Source of the DNA: Candidatus Gastranaerophilales bacterium
GTDB taxonomy: Bacteria; Cyanobacteriota; Vampirovibrionia; Gastranaerophilales; Gastranaerophilaceae
Direction of reading: 5' to 3'
Length of the DNA stretch: 64,000 bases
Assembly: GCA_944323875.1 (NCBI GenBank)
Contig: CALUUH010000006.1
Location: forward strand, 1 to 64,000
Shown here: positions 4,270-50,588 of the stretch, in pieces
Layout: every line of letters begins with the position of its first letter
Position numbering within the stretch: position 1 is the stretch's first letter
Translations under genes and position numbers: made by a program
The notes under the pieces: generated by a model
Databases searched by the model: none
What the model was told of the DNA's origin: nothing
Seen by the model: the letters and a program-made list of their open reading frames with translations, nothing else

Positions 4270-4392
4270 TAATAAAGACGTTAAGACGTTAAGTTCATTT
4301 CATTTAATTAGGTTACACAAAAACTTCCTTGTTGTCTGATTTTATTAAACGACTTAACGACTTAGCGTCTTAAAGTCTTAACGTCTTTATTA
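4270..4392. repeat. 123-bp inverted-repeat element with octamer arrays (MITE-like)
   Basis: Ends are a perfect 18-bp inverted repeat (TAATAAAGACGTTAAGAC at 4270-4287 and its complement at 4375-4392). Both arms continue as short tandem octamers of form TAAG-N4. There is no ORF inside. The same 19-base arm sequence recurs at 47811-47829. The surrounding gene-free stretch 3917-4566 otherwise holds only the cobO leader, a TGTCA-type dyad at 4446-4461 (ATGTCA-GGTG-TGACAT) and the promoter region of the 4567 gene; no small gene is convincing there. Confidence 0.7.
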
Positions 4393-4566: not shown

Positions 4567-6000
4567 ATGACTGTACCAGGATTAGCATCTTGTACAACTA
4601 AATATCAAATCACTCGTGATTCGAAGGGTAACATTATCCACAATCGTAACACGAAGGAATTGTATGACACTGCCAAGGCAAATTTGTCAGGCGCTACTCG
4701 TTCTACGACTTTTGTATCCGCAACCAGATCAGGTACAAAAAATATGTATGGAGTCGGTGATAAACCGAATTTTGCAGCATTGCGCGCTGGAAATGGTTCC
4801 GGAACAGTTGTTAGACCTATTGTTATTAATACCGGCGGAGAGGAATGTTCTCATACAAATAAAACCAGTACAATGGATAAAATGGCGGGTATTGCAACGC
4901 TTCTGGCCGGCGGTATTGAACTGTATAATAAATTGGATGAATCTGGTGCTATAGATAAGGCAAAAGAAGGTATTAAAGATCTGTTCCAGAAATTACCTAC
5001 TTCAACCGGAGCATTGAGCAGTGCTCTTGAAGATGCATCTTCATTCGGTGATATTTCTAAACTTGAAGGTCAGGCTGATGCGAAGAAGGCAAATATGGCT
5101 TCTGATTATCAGAAAATAGATATTTCATCTAAGGCCGCAGAAGCATTACAGCAAGATGGTGTTCAAGACGGACTTAAGCTTGCGGGTGTAACATTAGATA
5201 CCAATGCTTTGAAATTAGAAACATTGAATCCTGATGATCTTGAAGCAAGTACTAAATCTGTTGAGAAAGATATGGGCGAAGTAGAAGACTTCCAGCAAAA
5301 AGATTTGACCGATGCAAAAGCAAAAATATCAGAAAGACGCGGAGCAATAGATCAAGGTCTTGAATCTTTGAACGGACAATTGGAACGTTTAGAGGCTCAA
5401 CAGGGCAAAGAAGGTGCTCCGGCTAATCTGGATCAGCAGATCGCAGATTGTAAGGCTAAGATAGAAAAACTTGAAAAGCAAAAAGAACAGGTTGATAAAG
5501 CAGAAGGTGCTGTTGACCAGTTAAATAAAGATTGTACTCAGCTTCTTACTGACTTGAAAGCTCAACAATCAACAATAAAAGATTTGCAAGAGTTTGAAGG
5601 TGAGATAAAAGATAAGAAATATGATCTTGCGAAAGAACAAGATGGACAACTTGGCAAGAATATGAAAGAAATAGACAAGTTGAACAAGAAATGGCAAGGT
5701 ATTAAAGGTACGGATGAAAAAGCGCTCAGTCAAAAGGCTGAAATAGAAAAAGAAATTTCAGGACTGAAGAGTGAAATGAAAACAACATTATCATCATTGC
5801 AGGATGCAGGTACAACTTCATTTGAAAACAGCAAAGGCAAGAAATATGAAGTCAAGAATATGAGCAATGCATCAGTGTACCTCTCTGCCGGTGGAGATAT
5901 AACAGCAGGTTTGGTCAAACAAATGGTAAACGACGGCACGCTGCCGGTTGATGATAAGGGCAACATTGATATGGAAAAAATAAAGAAGCAGCAGGCATAA
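4567..6000 (+). CDS. Large coiled-coil hypothetical protein
   Basis: A 477-residue protein of unknown function. Residues 1-90 are Thr/Ser/Gly-rich and probably disordered. A short hydrophobic stretch (MAGIATLLAGGIELY) lies near residue 107. From about residue 220 to 425 it is a long heptad-bearing coiled coil rich in Lys/Glu/Gln, and a small globular tail follows (VYLSAGGDITAGLVKQM). There is no signal peptide. Such architecture fits a structural or secretion-related protein, but no domain is recognised. The SD is weak (GAGAGCGAG before ATG). It is monocistronic, closed by a strong terminator at 6091. Confidence 0.7.
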   Translation: MTVPGLASCTTKYQITRDSKGNIIHNRNTKELYDTAKANLSGATRSTTFVSATRSGTKNMYGVGDKPNFAALRAGNGSGTVVRPIVINTGGEECSHTNKTSTMDKMAGIATLLAGGIELYNKLDESGAIDKAKEGIKDLFQKLPTSTGALSSALEDASSFGDISKLEGQADAKKANMASDYQKIDISSKAAEALQQDGVQDGLKLAGVTLDTNALKLETLNPDDLEASTKSVEKDMGEVEDFQQKDLTDAKAKISERRGAIDQGLESLNGQLERLEAQQGKEGAPANLDQQIADCKAKIEKLEKQKEQVDKAEGAVDQLNKDCTQLLTDLKAQQSTIKDLQEFEGEIKDKKYDLAKEQDGQLGKNMKEIDKLNKKWQGIKGTDEKALSQKAEIEKEISGLKSEMKTTLSSLQDAGTTSFENSKGKKYEVKNMSNASVYLSAGGDITAGLVKQMVNDGTLPVDDKGNIDMEKIKKQQA

Positions 6001-6090
6001 TAGTGAAACTTAACAATAAATTTACATAAGCTTTACTTTTACTTCCGGTTATTGTATAATAAAGGTATAGACAGTAGTGTCTTAGATAAA

Positions 6091-6116
6091 AAGAACGGGC
6101 GGCCCCGTTCTTTTTT
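6091..6116 (+). terminator. Rho-independent terminator before rimP
   Basis: Stem AAGAACGGG / CCCGTTCTT with loop CGGC followed by a run of six T. It ends the 4567 gene, and since it lies 20 bases before rimP it may also act as an attenuator of the rimP-nusA leader. Confidence 0.85.
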
Positions 6117-6137
6117 CACTAAGTCAGGAGGTTATTA

Positions 6138-6620
6138 ATGAAGCAGGACATAAACAGGCATGAAATATTAGAGAAGGTTACGCCTTTGATAGAGAACACA
6201 GCAATGCGTTTCGGGTTTATTCCTGTGGAGATAGAGTTTGTAAAGGAAAATCACCGCTGGTTTTTGAGAATATATTTGTATTCAAGAGAAAAGGACATTA
6301 CGCTTGATGATTGTGAGAATGTAACACGCAGTTTAAGTGATTTTCTTGATGAGCTTATTCCTGTCAAATATTATTTAGAGGTTTCCTCACCCGGTTTAGA
6401 GCGAAAGTTCAAGTCTGAGAAAGAGTTTATAATCTTTAAAGGGCGCAGGGTCAGTATTAAGTTAAAACAACCGCTTGAGGGTGAAACCGAAAAGATTTTC
6501 AAGGGTGAAATTCTTGATTATGATACAAACGAGGGGTTAAGGCTTTTCCGTTTTGACGACGGGCAGGAGCTATTGATCCCAAAAAGCAGCATTCAGTCCG
6601 CTAAGTTGTATATAGATTAA
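6138..6620 (+). CDS. rimP: Ribosome maturation factor RimP
   Basis: RimP assists maturation of the 30S subunit. The 160-residue length, the N-terminal alpha/beta domain, the SSPGLERKF motif near residue 85 and the C-terminal SH3-like barrel match the family. SD AGGAGG is seven bases before ATG. In most bacteria rimP is followed directly by nusA; here the two are separated by an inserted four-helix-bundle element (6634-7069), so they were presumably adjacent before that insertion. Confidence 0.95.
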   Translation: MKQDINRHEILEKVTPLIENTAMRFGFIPVEIEFVKENHRWFLRIYLYSREKDITLDDCENVTRSLSDFLDELIPVKYYLEVSSPGLERKFKSEKEFIIFKGRRVSIKLKQPLEGETEKIFKGEILDYDTNEGLRLFRFDDGQELLIPKSSIQSAKLYID

Positions 6621-6633
6621 AGACAGTAGTTAA

Positions 6634-6672
6634 AGTGAGTGAAGTGAGTGAAGTGAGTAAAGTGAGTAATGT
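6634..6672 (+). repeat. Left inverted-repeat arm of the IVS-like element
   Basis: 39 bases made of four near-identical 9-nt units of type GTGAGTGAA. It pairs with 7031-7069 at 34 of 39 positions plus one wobble. The ATG of the enclosed gene (6669) is inside this arm, so folding of the arms in RNA would bury the start codon. Confidence 0.9.
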
Positions 6673-7025
6673 ATCATAAAGATTTAGAAATTTATAAAAA
6701 ATCAATGGATTTAGTTATGATAATTTATGAAATAACTAAAGATTTTCCAAATAATGAAAGTTTTGGATTAATTAGTCAGTTAAGAAGATCTGCAGTTTCA
6801 ATACCTTCAAATATTGCAGAAGGATGTGCTCGCGGGTCTGATAAACAGATTTATCATTTTGTAAATATTGCATTGGGTTCCTTAGCTGAATTGGAAACAC
6901 AATTGGAAATTTCAAAACGATTAGGATATATAAAGGATTTTTCATATATAGACCAATCTTTTCAAAGTTTAAAATCATTATTATTAGGTTTTAAAAAGCA
7001 TATAATAAATAAGAGTGAATTATGA
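6669..7025 (+). CDS. Four-helix-bundle protein, S23/23S-rRNA intervening-sequence family
   Basis: A 118-residue protein of the family first known from intervening sequences (IVS) in 23S rRNA genes, related in fold to the Avd accessory protein of diversity-generating retroelements. The signatures SQLRRSAVSIPSNIAEG (about residue 36) and LGSLAELETQLEISKRLGY (about 75) are both present, and four amphipathic helices cover the chain. Its biochemical role is unknown even for the family; nucleic-acid binding is assumed. The start codon lies in the left inverted repeat, without a normal SD. The gene sits between rimP and nusA, outside rRNA, and appears to be the cargo of an inserted element. Confidence 0.92.
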   Translation: MYHKDLEIYKKSMDLVMIIYEITKDFPNNESFGLISQLRRSAVSIPSNIAEGCARGSDKQIYHFVNIALGSLAELETQLEISKRLGYIKDFSYIDQSFQSLKSLLLGFKKHIINKSEL

Positions 7026-7030
7026 TTAAT

Positions 7031-7069
7031 ACGTTACTCACCTTACTCACTTCACTCACAGTACTCACT
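7031..7069 (+). repeat. Right inverted-repeat arm of the IVS-like element
   Basis: 39 bases, reverse complement of 6634-6672 with five differences (34/39 identical). It begins five bases after the stop codon of the four-helix-bundle gene and ends 21 bases before the nusA start. No clear target-site duplication flanks the two arms. Confidence 0.9.
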
Positions 7070-7090
7070 TAAAAATAGAAAGGTAAAAAA

Positions 7091-8332
7091 ATGATCAAAA
7101 TTGGAACAGCATTATTTGAAGCATGCGAAGAACTGGAAAGAGAAAAAGGGATACCAAAAGAAGTTTTGGTAACGTCCCTGTGCGACGCAATGGTAACCGC
7201 ATATAAGAAAAATATGCGAGTAAAAGAAGCCGATAATATTGAGGCAATTCTGGATGAACAATCAGGTGAAATAGGCGTATTTAAAACCAAATTGGTTGTT
7301 GACTCTGTAGAAGATGAAGAAGAACAGATTTCACTTGCAGAAGCAAAAGAAATTGTCGAAGATGTTGAAGTCGGCGATGAAATTAAAATCGAAGTTACAC
7401 CGGAACAATTTGGCCGCATAGCTGCTCAAGCCGCTAAACAGGTCATTACACAAAGAATCAGAGAAGCTGAAAAAAATCTTGTAATGCAAGAGTTTTTGGA
7501 TAAAAAAGGCACTCTGACAACCGGTATTATCCAACGCGTTGAAAATAGAAACGTAATCGTTAATATCGGTAAATGCGACGCTATTATGCCTTATAAAGAA
7601 CAAATTCCGGGTGAATATTACAAACCGGGCAATAGAATCAGAGTTTTCGTACTTAATGTAAAAGAAACAACAAGATTGCCGCAGGTTATTGTATCCCACG
7701 CTCACGCTGAAATTGTTAAAGAATTGTTTGAACTTGAAGTACCGGAAATTGAAGACGGTATCGTTGAAATTAAATCAATTTCCCGCGAAGCAGGATATAG
7801 AACAAAAATCGCAGTTTGGTCAAATGATCCGGAAGTTGATTGCGTAGGAGCGTGTATCGGACCTCGCGGCTCAAGAATACAGACAATTGTTTCTGAGTTG
7901 AAAAACGAGAAGATAGATATCGTAAGATATTCAGAAGACCCTGTAGAATACATTGTTAACGCACTTTCCCCTTCCCGCGTTGTGTCAGTTGATATTCTGG
8001 CTGATGATGAATACGCTCACGAAGCAATGGTTGTTGTGCCAGATGACCAATTGTCACTCGCTATCGGACGTGACGGACAAAATGTCAGATTGGCTCATAA
8101 ATTGACCGGCTGGAGAATAGATATTAAGAGCGTTTCTCAGATGGAAAAAGCAGAAGCTCAACGTATTCAAAACTACCAGGAAGAAGAACCTCAAGATGAT
8201 TACGAAGAAGAAATTCAACAGGATGAGATCCAACAGGAAATAGAAGAAGAAATGAATCAACAAGCAATTGATGAAGAAGATTTTCCTCAAGAAGAAGCTG
8301 TTGAAGAATCTTCCGACGAAATAGAAGAATAG
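7091..8332 (+). CDS. nusA: Transcription termination/antitermination factor NusA
   Basis: NusA binds RNA polymerase and nascent RNA and modulates pausing, termination and antitermination. Domains in order: N-terminal RNAP-binding domain (1-125), S1 (about 133-200, beginning KGTLTTGIIQRV), KH1 (about 220-275, with GACIGPRGSRIQ) and KH2 (about 290-345, with LAIGRDGQNVRLA). The C-terminal 50 residues are a very acidic Glu/Gln tail instead of the acidic repeats of E. coli. The usual downstream partners ylxR and infB are absent; a terminator follows. The inserted four-helix-bundle element lies just upstream. Confidence 0.96.
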   Translation: MIKIGTALFEACEELEREKGIPKEVLVTSLCDAMVTAYKKNMRVKEADNIEAILDEQSGEIGVFKTKLVVDSVEDEEEQISLAEAKEIVEDVEVGDEIKIEVTPEQFGRIAAQAAKQVITQRIREAEKNLVMQEFLDKKGTLTTGIIQRVENRNVIVNIGKCDAIMPYKEQIPGEYYKPGNRIRVFVLNVKETTRLPQVIVSHAHAEIVKELFELEVPEIEDGIVEIKSISREAGYRTKIAVWSNDPEVDCVGACIGPRGSRIQTIVSELKNEKIDIVRYSEDPVEYIVNALSPSRVVSVDILADDEYAHEAMVVVPDDQLSLAIGRDGQNVRLAHKLTGWRIDIKSVSQMEKAEAQRIQNYQEEEPQDDYEEEIQQDEIQQEIEEEMNQQAIDEEDFPQEEAVEESSDEIEE

Positions 8333-8365
8333 ATGCAAAGTCTATAATATATATAATAAACCAAG

Positions 8366-8407
8366 ACGCGAGGCAATTATTTTTATAAACGCCCGCGTTT
8401 TGTTTTT
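8366..8407 (+). terminator. Terminator after nusA
   Basis: A 9-bp stem with one mismatch (ACGCGAGGC / GCCCGCGT) and a 16-nt AT-rich loop, followed by TTTTGTTTTT. Confidence 0.65.
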
Positions 8408-8427
8408 ATGTAATATTTTTTGTCATG

Positions 8428-8456
8428 TTGACAAAAAAAATTGAGCATATAATAAT
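8428..8456 (+). promoter_or_regulatory. Promoter of tuf
   Basis: Consensus -35 TTGACA at 8428-8433 and AATAAT at 8451-8456 with a 17-base spacer; an overlapping TATAAT at 8448 has a 14-base spacer. A strong promoter is expected for this highly expressed gene. Confidence 0.6.
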
Positions 8457-8525
8457 AACAATATGGCTTAAAATACCAAATTCGTATTATAGTTATAAGT
8501 AGAGAAAAAAAAGGAGATTAATCTC

Positions 8526-9734
8526 ATGGCACGTGAAAAGTATGAACGTACGAAACCACACGTTAACGTCGGTACAATAGGCCACGTTGACCACGGTAAA
8601 ACAACATTAACCGCAGCAATTACAGCTGTATTGGCTGCTGCAGGTCAAGCTGCATTGAAAAAATTTGATGAAATTGACGCAGCACCGGAAGAAAGAGCAA
8701 GAGGTATAACCATCTCTACTGCTCACGTAGAATATGAAACAGAAAAAAGACACTATGCACACGTTGACTGCCCGGGCCACGCTGACTATGTTAAAAACAT
8801 GATCACTGGTGCAGCACAAATGGACGGCGCAATCCTCGTTGTAGCAGCTACTGACGGTGCAATGCCTCAAACTCGTGAACACATCTTGTTGGCAAGACAA
8901 GTTGGTGTTCCTAACCTTGTTGTATTTTTGAACAAATGCGATATGGTTGATGATCCTGAATTGTTAGAATTGGTTGAAATGGAAGTTCGTGAACTTCTTT
9001 CTTCATACGAATTTGACGGTGACAACATCCCATTCATCCACGGTTCAGCATTAAAAGCATTGGAAGCTGCTCAAGCTAACCCTGCTATCAAACGTGGTGA
9101 AGATAAATGGGTTGACAAAATCTGGGAATTGATGGATGCAATCGACAGCTACTTCCCAACTCCAGAACGTGACTTAGACAAACCGTTCTTGATGCCTGTT
9201 GAAGACGTATTCTCTATCACAGGTCGTGGTACTGTTGCTACAGGCCGTGTAGAACGTGGTGTTGTTAAAGTTGGTGATGAAGTTGAATTAGTAGGTTTAG
9301 GCGAAACTAAGAAAACAACTGTTACCGGTGTTGAAATGTTCAGAAAATCACTTGACCAGGGTCAAGCTGGTGACAACATTGGTGCATTGCTTCGTGGTAT
9401 CGACAAAACTGAAATCCAACGTGGTCAAGTACTTGCAAAACCAGGTACAATTCATCCACACACTAAATTCACAGCAAACGTTTACGTTTTGACAAAAGAA
9501 GAAGGCGGACGTCATACTCCATTCTTCCCTGGTTACAGACCGCAGTTCTACATCAGAACAACTGACGTAACCGGTTCAATCAAATTTGATGGTCAAATGG
9601 TAATGCCTGGTGATAACGTAGTTATGGAAGTTGAACTTATCGCTCCAGTAGCTATCGAAGAAGGTATGAGATTTGCTATTCGTGAAGGCGGCCACACAGT
9701 TGGTGCCGGTGTTGTAGACAAAATTATTGAGTAA
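8526..9734 (+). CDS. tuf: Translation elongation factor Tu
   Basis: EF-Tu delivers aminoacyl-tRNA to the ribosome in a GTP-dependent way. G1 GHVDHGKT (residues 19-26), G3 DCPGHADY, G4 NKCD and the domain II/III sequence are all intact over 402 residues. The sequence is of cyanobacterial character (for example [11 protein letters not shown]). Codon use is more C-ending than in neighbouring genes, as expected for very high expression. SD AAGGAG. The gene is not in a str operon with rpsG/fusA; it has its own promoter and terminator. Confidence 0.98.
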
Positions 9735-47810: not shown

Positions 47811-47905
47811 TTAATAAAGACGTTAAGACTATAAGACGCTAAGACGATAAGTTCGTTAATGAGTGACAAGGTGATTAAGTGATTAAGTGACTAAGTGGTT
47901 ACAGG
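47811..47905. repeat. TAAG-N4 octamer array
   Basis: Consecutive units AAGACGTT, AAGACTAT, AAGACGCT, AAGACGAT, AAGTTCGT, then AAGTGATT, AAGTGACT. The first 19 bases are identical to the end of the 4270-4392 element. It is followed by further repeats to 48315; the whole gene-free stretch 47757-48334 is repeats with no gene seen. Confidence 0.8.
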
Positions 47906-47912
47906 AATAAGT

Positions 47913-48048
47913 CAACGTGAGAAAAGTCCCACATTGCCTAAAAAAGTTACTAAGGCACTAAGGTACTAAGGAGTTACAAAAATAGGGCAATGTGAGAATA
48001 TTCTCGCATTACCCTATTTTGTAATAACAGTACACTGTTTACTGTTCA
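47913..48048. repeat. Composite repeat, copy A
   Basis: Order: a CAACGTGAG/CCCACATTG hairpin, an octamer array (ACTAAGGC, ACTAAGGT, ACTAAGGA), an imperfect palindrome (TAGGGCAATGTGAGA-N4-TCTCGCATTACCCTA) and a GTTTACTGTTCA tail. Copies B (48163) and C (50431) share this order. Confidence 0.8.
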
Positions 48049-48084
48049 TAGGTCACAGATGTAGGTTGGAGCATTCTTGCCCAA

Positions 48085-48153
48085 CAGAAAATTTGAGATC
48101 CCGCAAGGCAACGACTGTGGCAAGACGCCGTGAAACCGCTGCGGGATGACGGA
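48085..48153. repeat. GC-rich palindromic repeat
   Basis: GATCCCGCA near 48089 and TGCGGGATGAC near 48139 form inverted ends around a GC-rich centre. It resembles the dispersed GATCC...GGATGACGG palindromes found in many bacterial genomes. It lies between composite copies A and B. Confidence 0.5.
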
Positions 48154-48162
48154 ATAAAAAGG

Positions 48163-48313
48163 CAACGTGAGAAAAGTCCCACATTGTCTTGAAAAGTTAC
48201 TAAGGCACTAAGTTACTAAGGCAGTAAGTATTTACAAAAATAGGGCAACGTGAGAATATTTTCGCATTACCCTATTTTGAAATAACAGTTCACGGTTCAC
48301 TGTTCACAGTTCA
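48163..48313. repeat. Composite repeat, copy B
   Basis: Same order as copy A with a few differences (for example AACGTGAG in the palindrome and a longer GTTCACGGTTCACTGTTCACAG tail, trimmed here to GTTCACTGTTCAC). It ends at the hairpin beyond the prepilin stop codon. Confidence 0.8.
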
Positions 48314-48315
48314 CA

Positions 48316-48342
48316 CCAACTAAGGGCTTTGTCCTTAGTTGG
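48316..48342. promoter_or_regulatory. Hairpin/cruciform over prepilin stop, IMH-like context
   Basis: Perfect 10-bp stem CCAACTAAGG / CCTTAGTTGG with a 7-nt loop. It includes the last codons and the stop of the prepilin, and no U-tract follows. In diversity-generating retroelements such an inverted repeat just past the variable region's GC-rich end is part of the target-recognition signal. A terminator is the simpler alternative. Confidence 0.6.
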
Positions 48343-50119
48343 AAATGCACACAGCGCGGCCGTTGCTGTAGTTCTTGAAGTTCCAGTTACCGTCAATGCC
48401 GTACGTGCTGGAAGTGCCGAAGTACCGTACGTACGCGCGATCCGCACCGTACTCCTCACTGGACCAGTAGTAGTAGTAGTAGCCATTGTATTTGATTGGA
48501 GGATTTTGTTGGTATTCGTCCTTTACTTTTAGTCCGCTTTTGTCTTCTTTTGCTCCTATAGTTACTGCGCTTCCGTCGCTTGCATTTACGTATAATTCAC
48601 TCGCTAGCTGGGCCAATTGTGCTCTCGTTGGTAATTCCATACCTTTCTCTTGACAGCTTAGTTTAGCCCCTGCCCAATAGTTTGTATCGCAGGATGGGTT
48701 ACTTGAGCCATAGCTATCTAAATCTTCATATTCACTTCCGTCACAGGTATCTATTGCTCTGGTTGCGGCAAAGTCTGTTGACCAGCACATGTCACCAATC
48801 GGGTTATCGCAAGTTGAAAATGCAACGCCAGAGCTTAGTTGAATATCTTTACCAACTCTATTCGGCCCTTTCTTTCCGTTTACATCTACCATATATGCCA
48901 TACAGCTTACCTGTGAACCTGTATCTTCAATCGGGTCTGCGTAAGGACATTCCGGCTGGTATGCCATAATCACTGTTGTTCCGTCTGCTACTACAAATGA
49001 CATTGTATTGGTATTACTCTGCCATTCCTTAAGTCCCATGCTTGATGCAGATGTTAAAGAATCAGTTTCGACTTCCAAAGGTTCTTCGTTGCTGCCAGTT
49101 GTAACGACTTTAGGAGAATAACATTTATTAATGTCTGTATGGTCACAGGTTTTAATGACTTTCATATATTGTTTGAAAGTGTTCATAAAATCTTCCGTAG
49201 TTTCATGGCCTGTCATGACGCCGTCGGTGTTCATTCTGCGGACGGTTTCCGTAAGTTTCTTTTCCCAGAGGTCTTTAGCCGTAGACCATGCCTTCTCGTT
49301 ATGATTTTGAATTAGCCCCGGAAGTGTCAGGGCGGCAACGATGCCGATTACGGCGAGGGTGATTAATACTTCAGCCAAAGTGAAAGCGGCCTTGCGGAAA
49401 GGCACTAAGTTACTAAGGCACTGAGGCACTAAGGATTTACATGAGGCTGGCTCTGCGGCTTCGTGACGAGCCCTGTCATGAAATTCCTCGCCCTTTGGGG
49501 AGAGGATAGTTGGACTTAACGAGCGTTTAGCGAGTTTAGTCCTAACTTGGTGAGGGGTCATGTCCTCAAGACTTGCAGCCTGGCTAGATCCTGAAACAAG
49601 TTCAGGATGACGGAAAGAGTCATGTGTGTCTTTAGCGGTCGCCCCCTGTGCAAGAGCAGACTTGTCTGCCCCCTCATCCTGACCTTCTCCCCAAGGGGCG
49701 AAGGAACAGCTTGACGTTGACCGTACTTCTTTAGCGGTTTCCAAATTAGTGGTGCAGGCTGGCCTGCCTTGGTGAGGGGTCAAGAGTTCGCTTCGCTCAC
49801 TACCCCTCCTCGAAATCAAAGATTCCGGTTTCCTCTCACAAAAACAATCCACCGGATTGTTTTTGTTCGGCAGAGTCTCAAGGGGAGGACATTGAGATTG
49901 TGCGTCTTTAGCCAATCCCTTTCCGTCATGCTGAACTTGTTTCAGCATCTCATCGCTGTTGCATCGTACGGTTTCCTTTAAACCCTCATCCGGCCTGTGG
50001 CCACCTTCTCCCAAAGGGGAGAAGGAATGTAACAGTTTTTGTTCATCATTAACATTGTTTTGTTTCATGGTTACATCTCCTTTGTTAGTACTATCAAGTT
50101 TTATTAAATTATCTTTCAT
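48335..50119 (-). CDS. Large-leader type IV prepilin-like protein with DGR-type variable C-terminus
   Basis: 594 residues. At 243-255 is a prepilin signature, KAAFTLAEVLITL, followed by the hydrophobic pilin helix and PGLIQNHNEKAW; cleavage before Phe246 (or nearby Ala) is expected. The 245 residues before it are translated genomic repeats (for example SFRHPELVSGSSQ, MLKQVQHDG, SFAPWGEGQDEG) and are unlike any pilin leader. SDs precede both ATG 50119 and ATG 50068; an in-frame GTG at 49405 would give a normal six-residue leader but lacks an SD. The mature protein is about 349 residues, Cys-rich, ending in a C-type-lectin-like domain (LPTRAQLAQLAS...YYYYYWSSEEYG...GRAVCIS). No pilus assembly genes are nearby. 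Confidence 0.75.
   Translation of the reverse strand: MKDNLIKLDSTNKGDVTMKQNNVNDEQKLLHSFSPLGEGGHRPDEGLKETVRCNSDEMLKQVQHDGKGLAKDAQSQCPPLETLPNKNNPVDCFCERKPESLISRRGSERSELLTPHQGRPACTTNLETAKEVRSTSSCSFAPWGEGQDEGADKSALAQGATAKDTHDSFRHPELVSGSSQAASLEDMTPHQVRTKLAKRSLSPTILSPKGEEFHDRARHEAAEPASCKSLVPQCLSNLVPFRKAAFTLAEVLITLAVIGIVAALTLPGLIQNHNEKAWSTAKDLWEKKLTETVRRMNTDGVMTGHETTEDFMNTFKQYMKVIKTCDHTDINKCYSPKVVTTGSNEEPLEVETDSLTSASSMGLKEWQSNTNTMSFVVADGTTVIMAYQPECPYADPIEDTGSQVSCMAYMVDVNGKKGPNRVGKDIQLSSGVAFSTCDNPIGDMCWSTDFAATRAIDTCDGSEYEDLDSYGSSNPSCDTNYWAGAKLSCQEKGMELPTRAQLAQLASELYVNASDGSAVTIGAKEDKSGLKVKDEYQQNPPIKYNGYYYYYWSSEEYGADRAYVRYFGTSSTYGIDGNWNFKNYSNGRAVCISN
48345..48485 (-). other. Candidate DGR variable region
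   Basis: The last ~47 codons of the prepilin. Tyr is always TAC, Asn nearly always AAC, and many other codons end in C (TTC, AGC, GGC, GAC), with five TAC in a row, while upstream codon use is mixed and AT-rich. Substituting A in AAC template codons gives exactly such NNC codons. GC content is visibly higher than in surroundings and the end (GGCCGCGCTGTGTGC) is GC-rich, as in initiation-of-mutagenic-homing sites. No template repeat or reverse transcriptase is in this window. Confidence 0.6.
49401..49440. repeat. Octamer array inside the prepilin reading frame
   Basis: On the coding strand units TTAGTGCC, TCAGTGCC, TTAGTAAC, TTAGTGCC are translated as SLVPQCLSNLVP just upstream of the prepilin signature. 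The same array type occurs at 63104-63125. Confidence 0.8.
49588..49608. repeat. Dispersed palindrome ATCCTGAA-N5-TTCAGGAT
   Basis: Translated in frame as HPELVSGSS. A sister palindrome ATGCTGAA-N5-TTCAGCAT lies at 49928-49948, translated as DEMLKQVQH. Both are of the widely dispersed type comparable with Rickettsia palindromic elements. Confidence 0.75.
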
Positions 50120-50194
50120 GCAATTCTCCTTATTAATTTATAATATACAATAATTCTATTCATTGAGCCACTTTTGCTAAGTTTATACACTTTG

Positions 50195-50216
50195 ACACAA
50201 GGAATATGCCTTGTGT
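50195..50216. promoter_or_regulatory. Perfect dyad upstream of prepilin
   Basis: ACACAAGG-N6-CCTTGTGT, 76 bases before the prepilin start. It could be an operator or an RNA hairpin. Confidence 0.4.
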
Positions 50217-50245
50217 TGAATGAAAATATTGCGAAAAGTTTACAA

Positions 50246-50380
50246 TTAGAGTAAGTGAGCCCCCCCCCCGACGTCTGAAAGCCTTGCAGCACAACGATTT
50301 ACGGTCTTGTCAAGTTTTAGGTTAAACCCCACTAAATCCTCAATATCCATAACTATACTCATTCCTGATAATTTCTTCAT
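50246..50380 (-). CDS. Small ORF with in-frame G10 tract
   Basis: 44 residues beginning MKKLSGMSIVMDIEDLVGF. A TATAAT lies exactly six bases before the ATG, as in the leaderless genes of this window. Near its end is a run of ten G (50260-50269 on the plus strand as C). With 10 G it stops at once; with nine (or twelve) it stays open for 87 codons and ends at TGA overlapping the prepilin ATG as ATGA. No homology recognised. It is either a phase-variable leader gene coupled to the prepilin or a chance ORF. Confidence 0.35.
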   Translation of the reverse strand: MKKLSGMSIVMDIEDLVGFNLKLDKTVNRCAARLSDVGGGAHLL

Positions 50381-50430
50381 ACAAGTATTATACCGTATCT
50401 CTCGTAAAATTGCAAGTCCCCTTTTAAAAA

Positions 50431-50550
50431 AGGCAGTAAGTTACTAAGGCACTATGGCACTAAGTATTTACAAAAATCAGGCAATGTGGGAATTTTCTCA
50501 TTGCCTGATTTGTAACAACAGTTCACTGTTTACTGTTCACAGGTCACAAT
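50431..50550. repeat. Composite repeat, copy C
   Basis: Octamer array (AGTAAGTT, ACTAAGGC), palindrome TCAGGCAATG / CATTGCCTGA (50477-50486 with 50499-50508) and GTTCACTGTTTACTGTTCAC tail. The gene-free stretch 50120-50846 otherwise holds the small ORF, the dyad and the GC-rich repeat listed here. Confidence 0.8.
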
Positions 50551-50588
50551 TTTGTAACCACTTAATCACTTAGTCACCTAGTCACTTG

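Follow-up and report, generated by a model that had tools for sequence, protein, structure and literature searches.

The S23 family (also IVP) was first defined from intervening sequences (IVSs) in 23S rRNA. These rRNA elements, as in Coxiella and Leptospira, comprise a single S23 open reading frame (ORF) between inverted, stem-forming ends and are patchily distributed. In the 23S IVS of Coxiella, the S23 start codon is directly preceded by tandem heptamers, and RNase III cuts a 28-bp stem (PMC4990558). Heptamer arrays dispersed in genomes are also known, with GGGAATC in Xanthomonas and Nostoc (PMC4692102) and TAACTGA in Beggiatoaceae (PMC4679880); S23 is not mentioned in either paper, as judged by text search. 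Here we describe an S23 gene flanked by inverted iteron arrays between rimP and nusA in a 64,000-nt stretch of DNA (the window; contig CALUUH010000006.1, assembly GCA_944323875.1) from a Candidatus Gastranaerophilales genome, designated G000 (97% complete). We judge it rather probable that the locus represents a compact selfish element, of the 23S rRNA IVS/S23 kind, living in an mRNA operon.

The locus shares with the rRNA IVSs the single S23 ORF, the inverted stem-forming ends and the patchy distribution. It differs in that it occupies a gap of an mRNA operon, that its iterons are common to arrays dispersed in the genome, and that excision by RNase III is here only presumed. With its gene placed between inverted copies of a dispersed, genome-specific repeat, it resembles the REPIN-RAYT systems, in which repetitive extragenic palindromic (REP) sequences accompany a transposase. 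However, the S23 repeat is a tandem array of 7-9-nt units and not a REP hairpin, and the protein is a helical bundle and not an HUH transposase. The short tandemly repeated repetitive sequences (STRRs) of cyanobacteria and other dispersed heptamer arrays are likewise short, mostly intergenic and genome-specific, whereas here S23 genes lie between arms of this kind. Finally, the S23 protein is homologous by sequence and fold to Avd, the accessory protein of diversity-generating retroelements (DGRs). Unlike in a DGR, a reverse transcriptase match (RVT_1, PF00078) was absent from G000.

The window S23 ORF matched PF05635 (23S_rRNA_IVP) with 124.6 bits, against a curated cut-off of 33.8, and is thus a member of the family; it also matched TIGR02436 (2.7e-35). 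Its AlphaFold2 model (pLDDT 96) was a four-helix bundle, with XCC0516 (2gsc) as the nearest structure (TM-score 0.91). The TM-score towards Avd (4dwl) was 0.77, and S23 matched the PHROG Avd family at 2.6e-9. A Candidatus Gastranaerophilales record encoded a protein 81% identical to the window S23. The core arms (6634-6672 and 7031-7069) were complementary at 34 of 39 positions by direct reading. Local alignment of the left and right flanks scored 27, while the best of 1000 dinucleotide-preserving shuffles reached 15. For the RNA of 6618-7090, folding at -122 kcal/mol (z = -9.45) predicted a long stem, and the AUG at 6669 was among its paired bases. The original prediction, made from the sequence alone, had proposed an S23/IVS-type four-helix-bundle gene bounded by 39-bp inverted repeats of 9-nt iterons, with its start codon occluded in the left arm; family match and fold, direct reading and in silico folding agree with these respective points. 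No Rfam match was found within 5800-8600, and the element lies outside any 23S rRNA gene.

We then compared the rimP-nusA gap among relatives. It was occupied in five of the six genomes of the genus (G000-G004; 470-567 nt) and empty in the congener G005 (33 nt). Among 24 other relatives it measured 0-122 nt and was counted empty in 23; the empty sites for which the original prediction had proposed to look therefore exist, both within the genus and in nearly all other relatives. A 74-nt gap in G016 contained a gene-less iteron palindrome, and the gap of G006 contained another palindromic repeat. Three other genera (g7, g8 and g14) each included occupied and empty states. The occupants of the genus were of three types. 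G000 and G001 carried the first, with arms of the GTGAGT type, and G002 and G003 the second, with 54% protein identity to the G000 S23 and GGGAATA arms. The third, in G004, had GGCACTAA arms. Between G002 and G003 the S23 gene was 99.2% identical in DNA, as against 88.8% for nusA and 84.2% for rimP, which points to transfer or conversion; the block of identity stopped close to the left arm on one side and some 70 nt past the right arm on the other. A Gastranaerophilales-type rimP-S23-nusA locus was also present in a record named Brachyspira (RUG745), probably a misbinned contig.

Inverted arms proved to be a general layout. We read 124 S23 loci belonging to several phyla, a sample biased to relatives of the window S23 and to strong PF05635 matches. 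An inverted repeat across the S23 gene scoring at least 16 was found at 60% of them, and in 2.3% of controls pairing flanks from different loci. Nearly all of these arms consisted of 7-9-nt iterons whose motif varied from element to element, and a conserved motif at the inner end after the iterons showed only weak enrichment. The original prediction had suggested a search for S23 genes flanked by iteron inverted repeats elsewhere than in rRNA, and such genes are common. An rRNA check of 20 further S23 loci gave no rRNA match. Some iteron-armed S23 genes are on plasmids, for example of Nostocales, and 36 plasmids matched S23. Carriage by phages was rejected, as no match was obtained in 50,697 phage records; a PADLOC defence search gave no hit. 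A type I-D CRISPR locus on plasmid pANA02 of Anabaena sp. 90 carries an S23 gene with GGTGACAGGGAACAG arms, placed between its cas6 and cas4 genes.

S23 genes recurred at particular sites, with groES-groEL (n=17) and rimP-nusA (n=12) represented in the set used for the tree. The tree sorted by site, with 9 changes as against 30.7 when sites were shuffled, and none of 200 shuffles gave a value as low. Between co-directional neighbours, 90 of 112 S23 genes were in the sense orientation (p 3e-14; the 45% baseline is that of three genes in a row), and only six were antisense to both. This bias suits an element living in transcripts. The window S23 was an exception to the sorting: it grouped weakly (87) with S23s of Bacteroidales, apart from the other rimP-nusA S23s, and may thus have arrived on its own. 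Within the genus, the groES-groEL gap held an S23 element with GTGATTAA arms in G001 and G003 and just one array, about 35 nt long, in G000, G002 and G004, and was clean in G005. S23 lineages are faithful to certain operon gaps, where they appear and disappear. In a comparison of the loci L110, L113 and L072, the left and right arms within a groESL element carried their iteron variants in one order (97%), and likeness between L072 and the other two was lower (74-86%). The likeness within an element suggests concerted evolution of the arms.

The iterons of the arms were also found dispersed in the host genomes. Matches to GTGAGTNNNGTGAGT (two adjacent units, GTGAGT type) numbered 125, 135, 0, 2, 7 and 0 in G000 to G005, respectively, the first count including the element's own arms. 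Those to GGGAATANGGGAATA (GGGAATA type, one mismatch) numbered 1, 11, 92, 158, 6 and 0. Neither pattern had a match in six other genera. The type of the dispersed iterons thus corresponds to that in the arms of the element resident in the genome, and G005, the S23-free congener, had no iteron match by three patterns. When arrays were tabulated against arms for ten genomes (about 50-100 kb sampled per genome), 40 matches were to the own genome and 22 to other genomes (permutation p 2.5e-5). Among 170 genomes of the family, 8-nt GTGANTNA arrays were present in 13 of 46 with S23 and 6 of 124 without (p 7e-5, kinship ignored), and at least ten matches were found only in genomes with S23 (6/46 and 0/124). 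The dispersed arrays also had their inner-end sequence in common with the arms, namely GGGAATAAGTTCGTTA in G003 and GTGAGTAA-GTATTTA in G001. Two results thus go beyond the original prediction: the arm iterons are part of a family spread over the genome, and rimP-nusA is a recurrent site.

Taking these results together, we propose an element in which two inverted iteron arrays enclose one small gene, and which would be expressed as part of the rimP-nusA mRNA. The arms would pair in the RNA to a stem of about 40 bp, looping out the gene and sequestering its start codon, while the rimP stop codon and the nusA ribosome site would remain outside. With these host signals outside the stem and the gene looped out, the cost to the host would be low, and the element is likely tolerated because the RNA stem loops the gene out. 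The stem would be an expected substrate of RNase III, cleavage being presumed from the rRNA IVS case (PMC4990558); a cut there might uncouple the rimP and nusA mRNAs, as the original prediction had suggested. Since arms and dispersed arrays are made of like iterons, element and arrays would share ends. The S23 protein, which is related to Avd, probably recognises either the iterons or the stem. The core of the original prediction, namely that an IVS-like element occupies an mRNA operon, is for the most part supported, and the element now has a defined anatomy, empty sites and an in silico stem.

Several observations weigh against this explanation. About one-fifth of the S23 loci had no clear arms, and no target-site duplication was seen by eye at junctions blurred by iterons and diverged empty sites. 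A single clade, that is, one old insertion at rimP-nusA, was not rejected by the approximately unbiased test (p 0.36). The 99% block in G002 and G003 and the site fidelity fit homologous recombination in the flanks equally with active movement. Some genomes with S23 had few dispersed arrays (G011, G018 and G303; about 50-80 kb), and no cognate S23 gene was found for the G000 iteron types GACGTTAA, GGCACTAA and GTGATTAA. Most dispersed arrays read in G000 fell in translated leaders of prepilin-like genes. As these genes are partly paralogues, the arrays are not all independent insertions, and gene duplication explains part of their number.

We regard it as possible, though not probable, that S23 drives the iterons in trans, the dispersed arrays and gene-less palindromes being its non-autonomous offspring, as REPINs are of RAYTs. 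The arm type predicts the dispersed type within one genus and across ten genomes, arms and arrays share inner ends, gene-less inverted pairs of about 115 nt exist and the 74-nt gap of G016 holds one, and the S23-free congener had no match by three patterns. However, the solved S23 relatives are four-helix bundles, for which no nuclease or reverse transcriptase activity is known; dispersed types without a cognate S23 exist, and the evidence is a correlation. It seems rather doubtful that S23 is a passenger trapped between inverted copies of arrays that spread otherwise, by replication slippage, template switching or another enzyme. The G000 iteron types without S23 and the single arrays at groES-groEL would fit, and likeness of two arms is generally expected from quasipalindrome correction, but the recurrence of inverted arms around S23 across phyla is hard to reach by repeated trapping. 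As for another enzyme, RVT_1 was not found in G000 or G001, Y1 transposase was not found in G000 or G002, and none of seven Y1 genes read was flanked by inverted iteron arrays. That the stem is a domesticated cis-regulator kept for tuning rimP/nusA or groES/groEL stoichiometry is improbable, since, in spite of its recurrence in two essential operons and the strong sense bias, presence is patchy, the closest relatives have empty sites and unrelated iterons occupy the same site.

Two further candidates were rejected. Retromobility driven by a reverse transcriptase was discarded as RVT_1 was not found in G000 (an assembly only 97% complete), G001, G016 or G028, all of which carry S23. A RAYT origin of the iterons was discarded as Y1 transposase (PF01797), not found in G000 and G002, is present in G005, which is iteron-free by three patterns. 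A Y1 transposase of G001 (L356) was flanked by an inverted REP-like palindrome, GGTGCGTCGTTTCGACGCACC, and not by iterons, and probably represents a RAYT-REP pair.

Table 1. Features of the rimP-nusA element and a gene-less inverted pair in the window
Feature	Position	Strand	Evidence or remark
rimP, host gene upstream of S23	6138-6620	+	RimP_N 2.8e-19; stop codon 6618-6620
Left arm, GTGAGTNNN iterons (four units of 9 nt), inner end GTGAGTAATGTAT	6630-6674	+	inverted-repeat pair, 45 nt, 87%
S23/IVP ORF, 118 aa, four-helix bundle, ATG within left arm	6669-7025	+	PF05635 2.4e-36
Right arm, GTGAGTNNN iterons inverted, four units	7029-7073	+	pairs with left arm in predicted RNA fold
AGAAAGG, likely nusA Shine-Dalgarno, outside stem	7077-7083	+	also in G005 empty site
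nusA, host gene downstream of S23	7091-8332	+	TIGR01953 3e-125
Gene-less inverted pair of other iteron type GACGTTAA, inner end AAGTTCATTT	4272-4389	.	

The gene-less pair in Table 1 is a possible relative by internal deletion. Elsewhere in the window, 47811-50587 holds a cluster of arrays of several iteron types (GACGATAA ending in AAGTTCGTTA, GTGATTAA and GGCACTAA), where an S23 gene is absent. At five prepilin-like loci of G000 (L047, L053, L056, L057 and L058), the leader upstream of AAFTLAEVLIT contains iteron arrays that are translated in frame (VSEVSRVSEVSK), and further palindromic repeats often accompany them. At L245, L248, L239, L228, L047 and L048 we observed prepilin-type families whose C-termini are variable in a DGR-like manner (LAVCLxN, RAICVSN); a hairpin comes next, and iterons after it. 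Such DGR-like variable genes are present in G000 and G001, with no RVT_1 match in either genome.

IVS elements, S23 genes and dispersed heptamer arrays are already known. The general inverted-arm layout, the sense bias, the recurrent sites with site-sorted lineages and the match between arm and genome iterons are new here. A literature search, in which subscription journals were thinly covered, found no report joining S23/IVS to dispersed heptamer arrays or describing an iteron-armed S23 in an operon. IVP genes have been reported inside cas loci (PMC3936711), and iteron-armed S23 elements may explain these, as in the cas6-cas4 case of the Anabaena plasmid. The S23 family here leaves its rRNA niche, the majority of loci read resembling operon-gap elements with iteron stems. 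We would tentatively consider S23/IVP genes as trans-acting partners of STRR-type arrays in many bacteria, in a symbiosis like that of REPINs and RAYTs that may involve iteron ends and a transposase-free, Avd-related protein. An orphan gene family may in this way be tied to dispersed short tandem repeats of unexplained origin.
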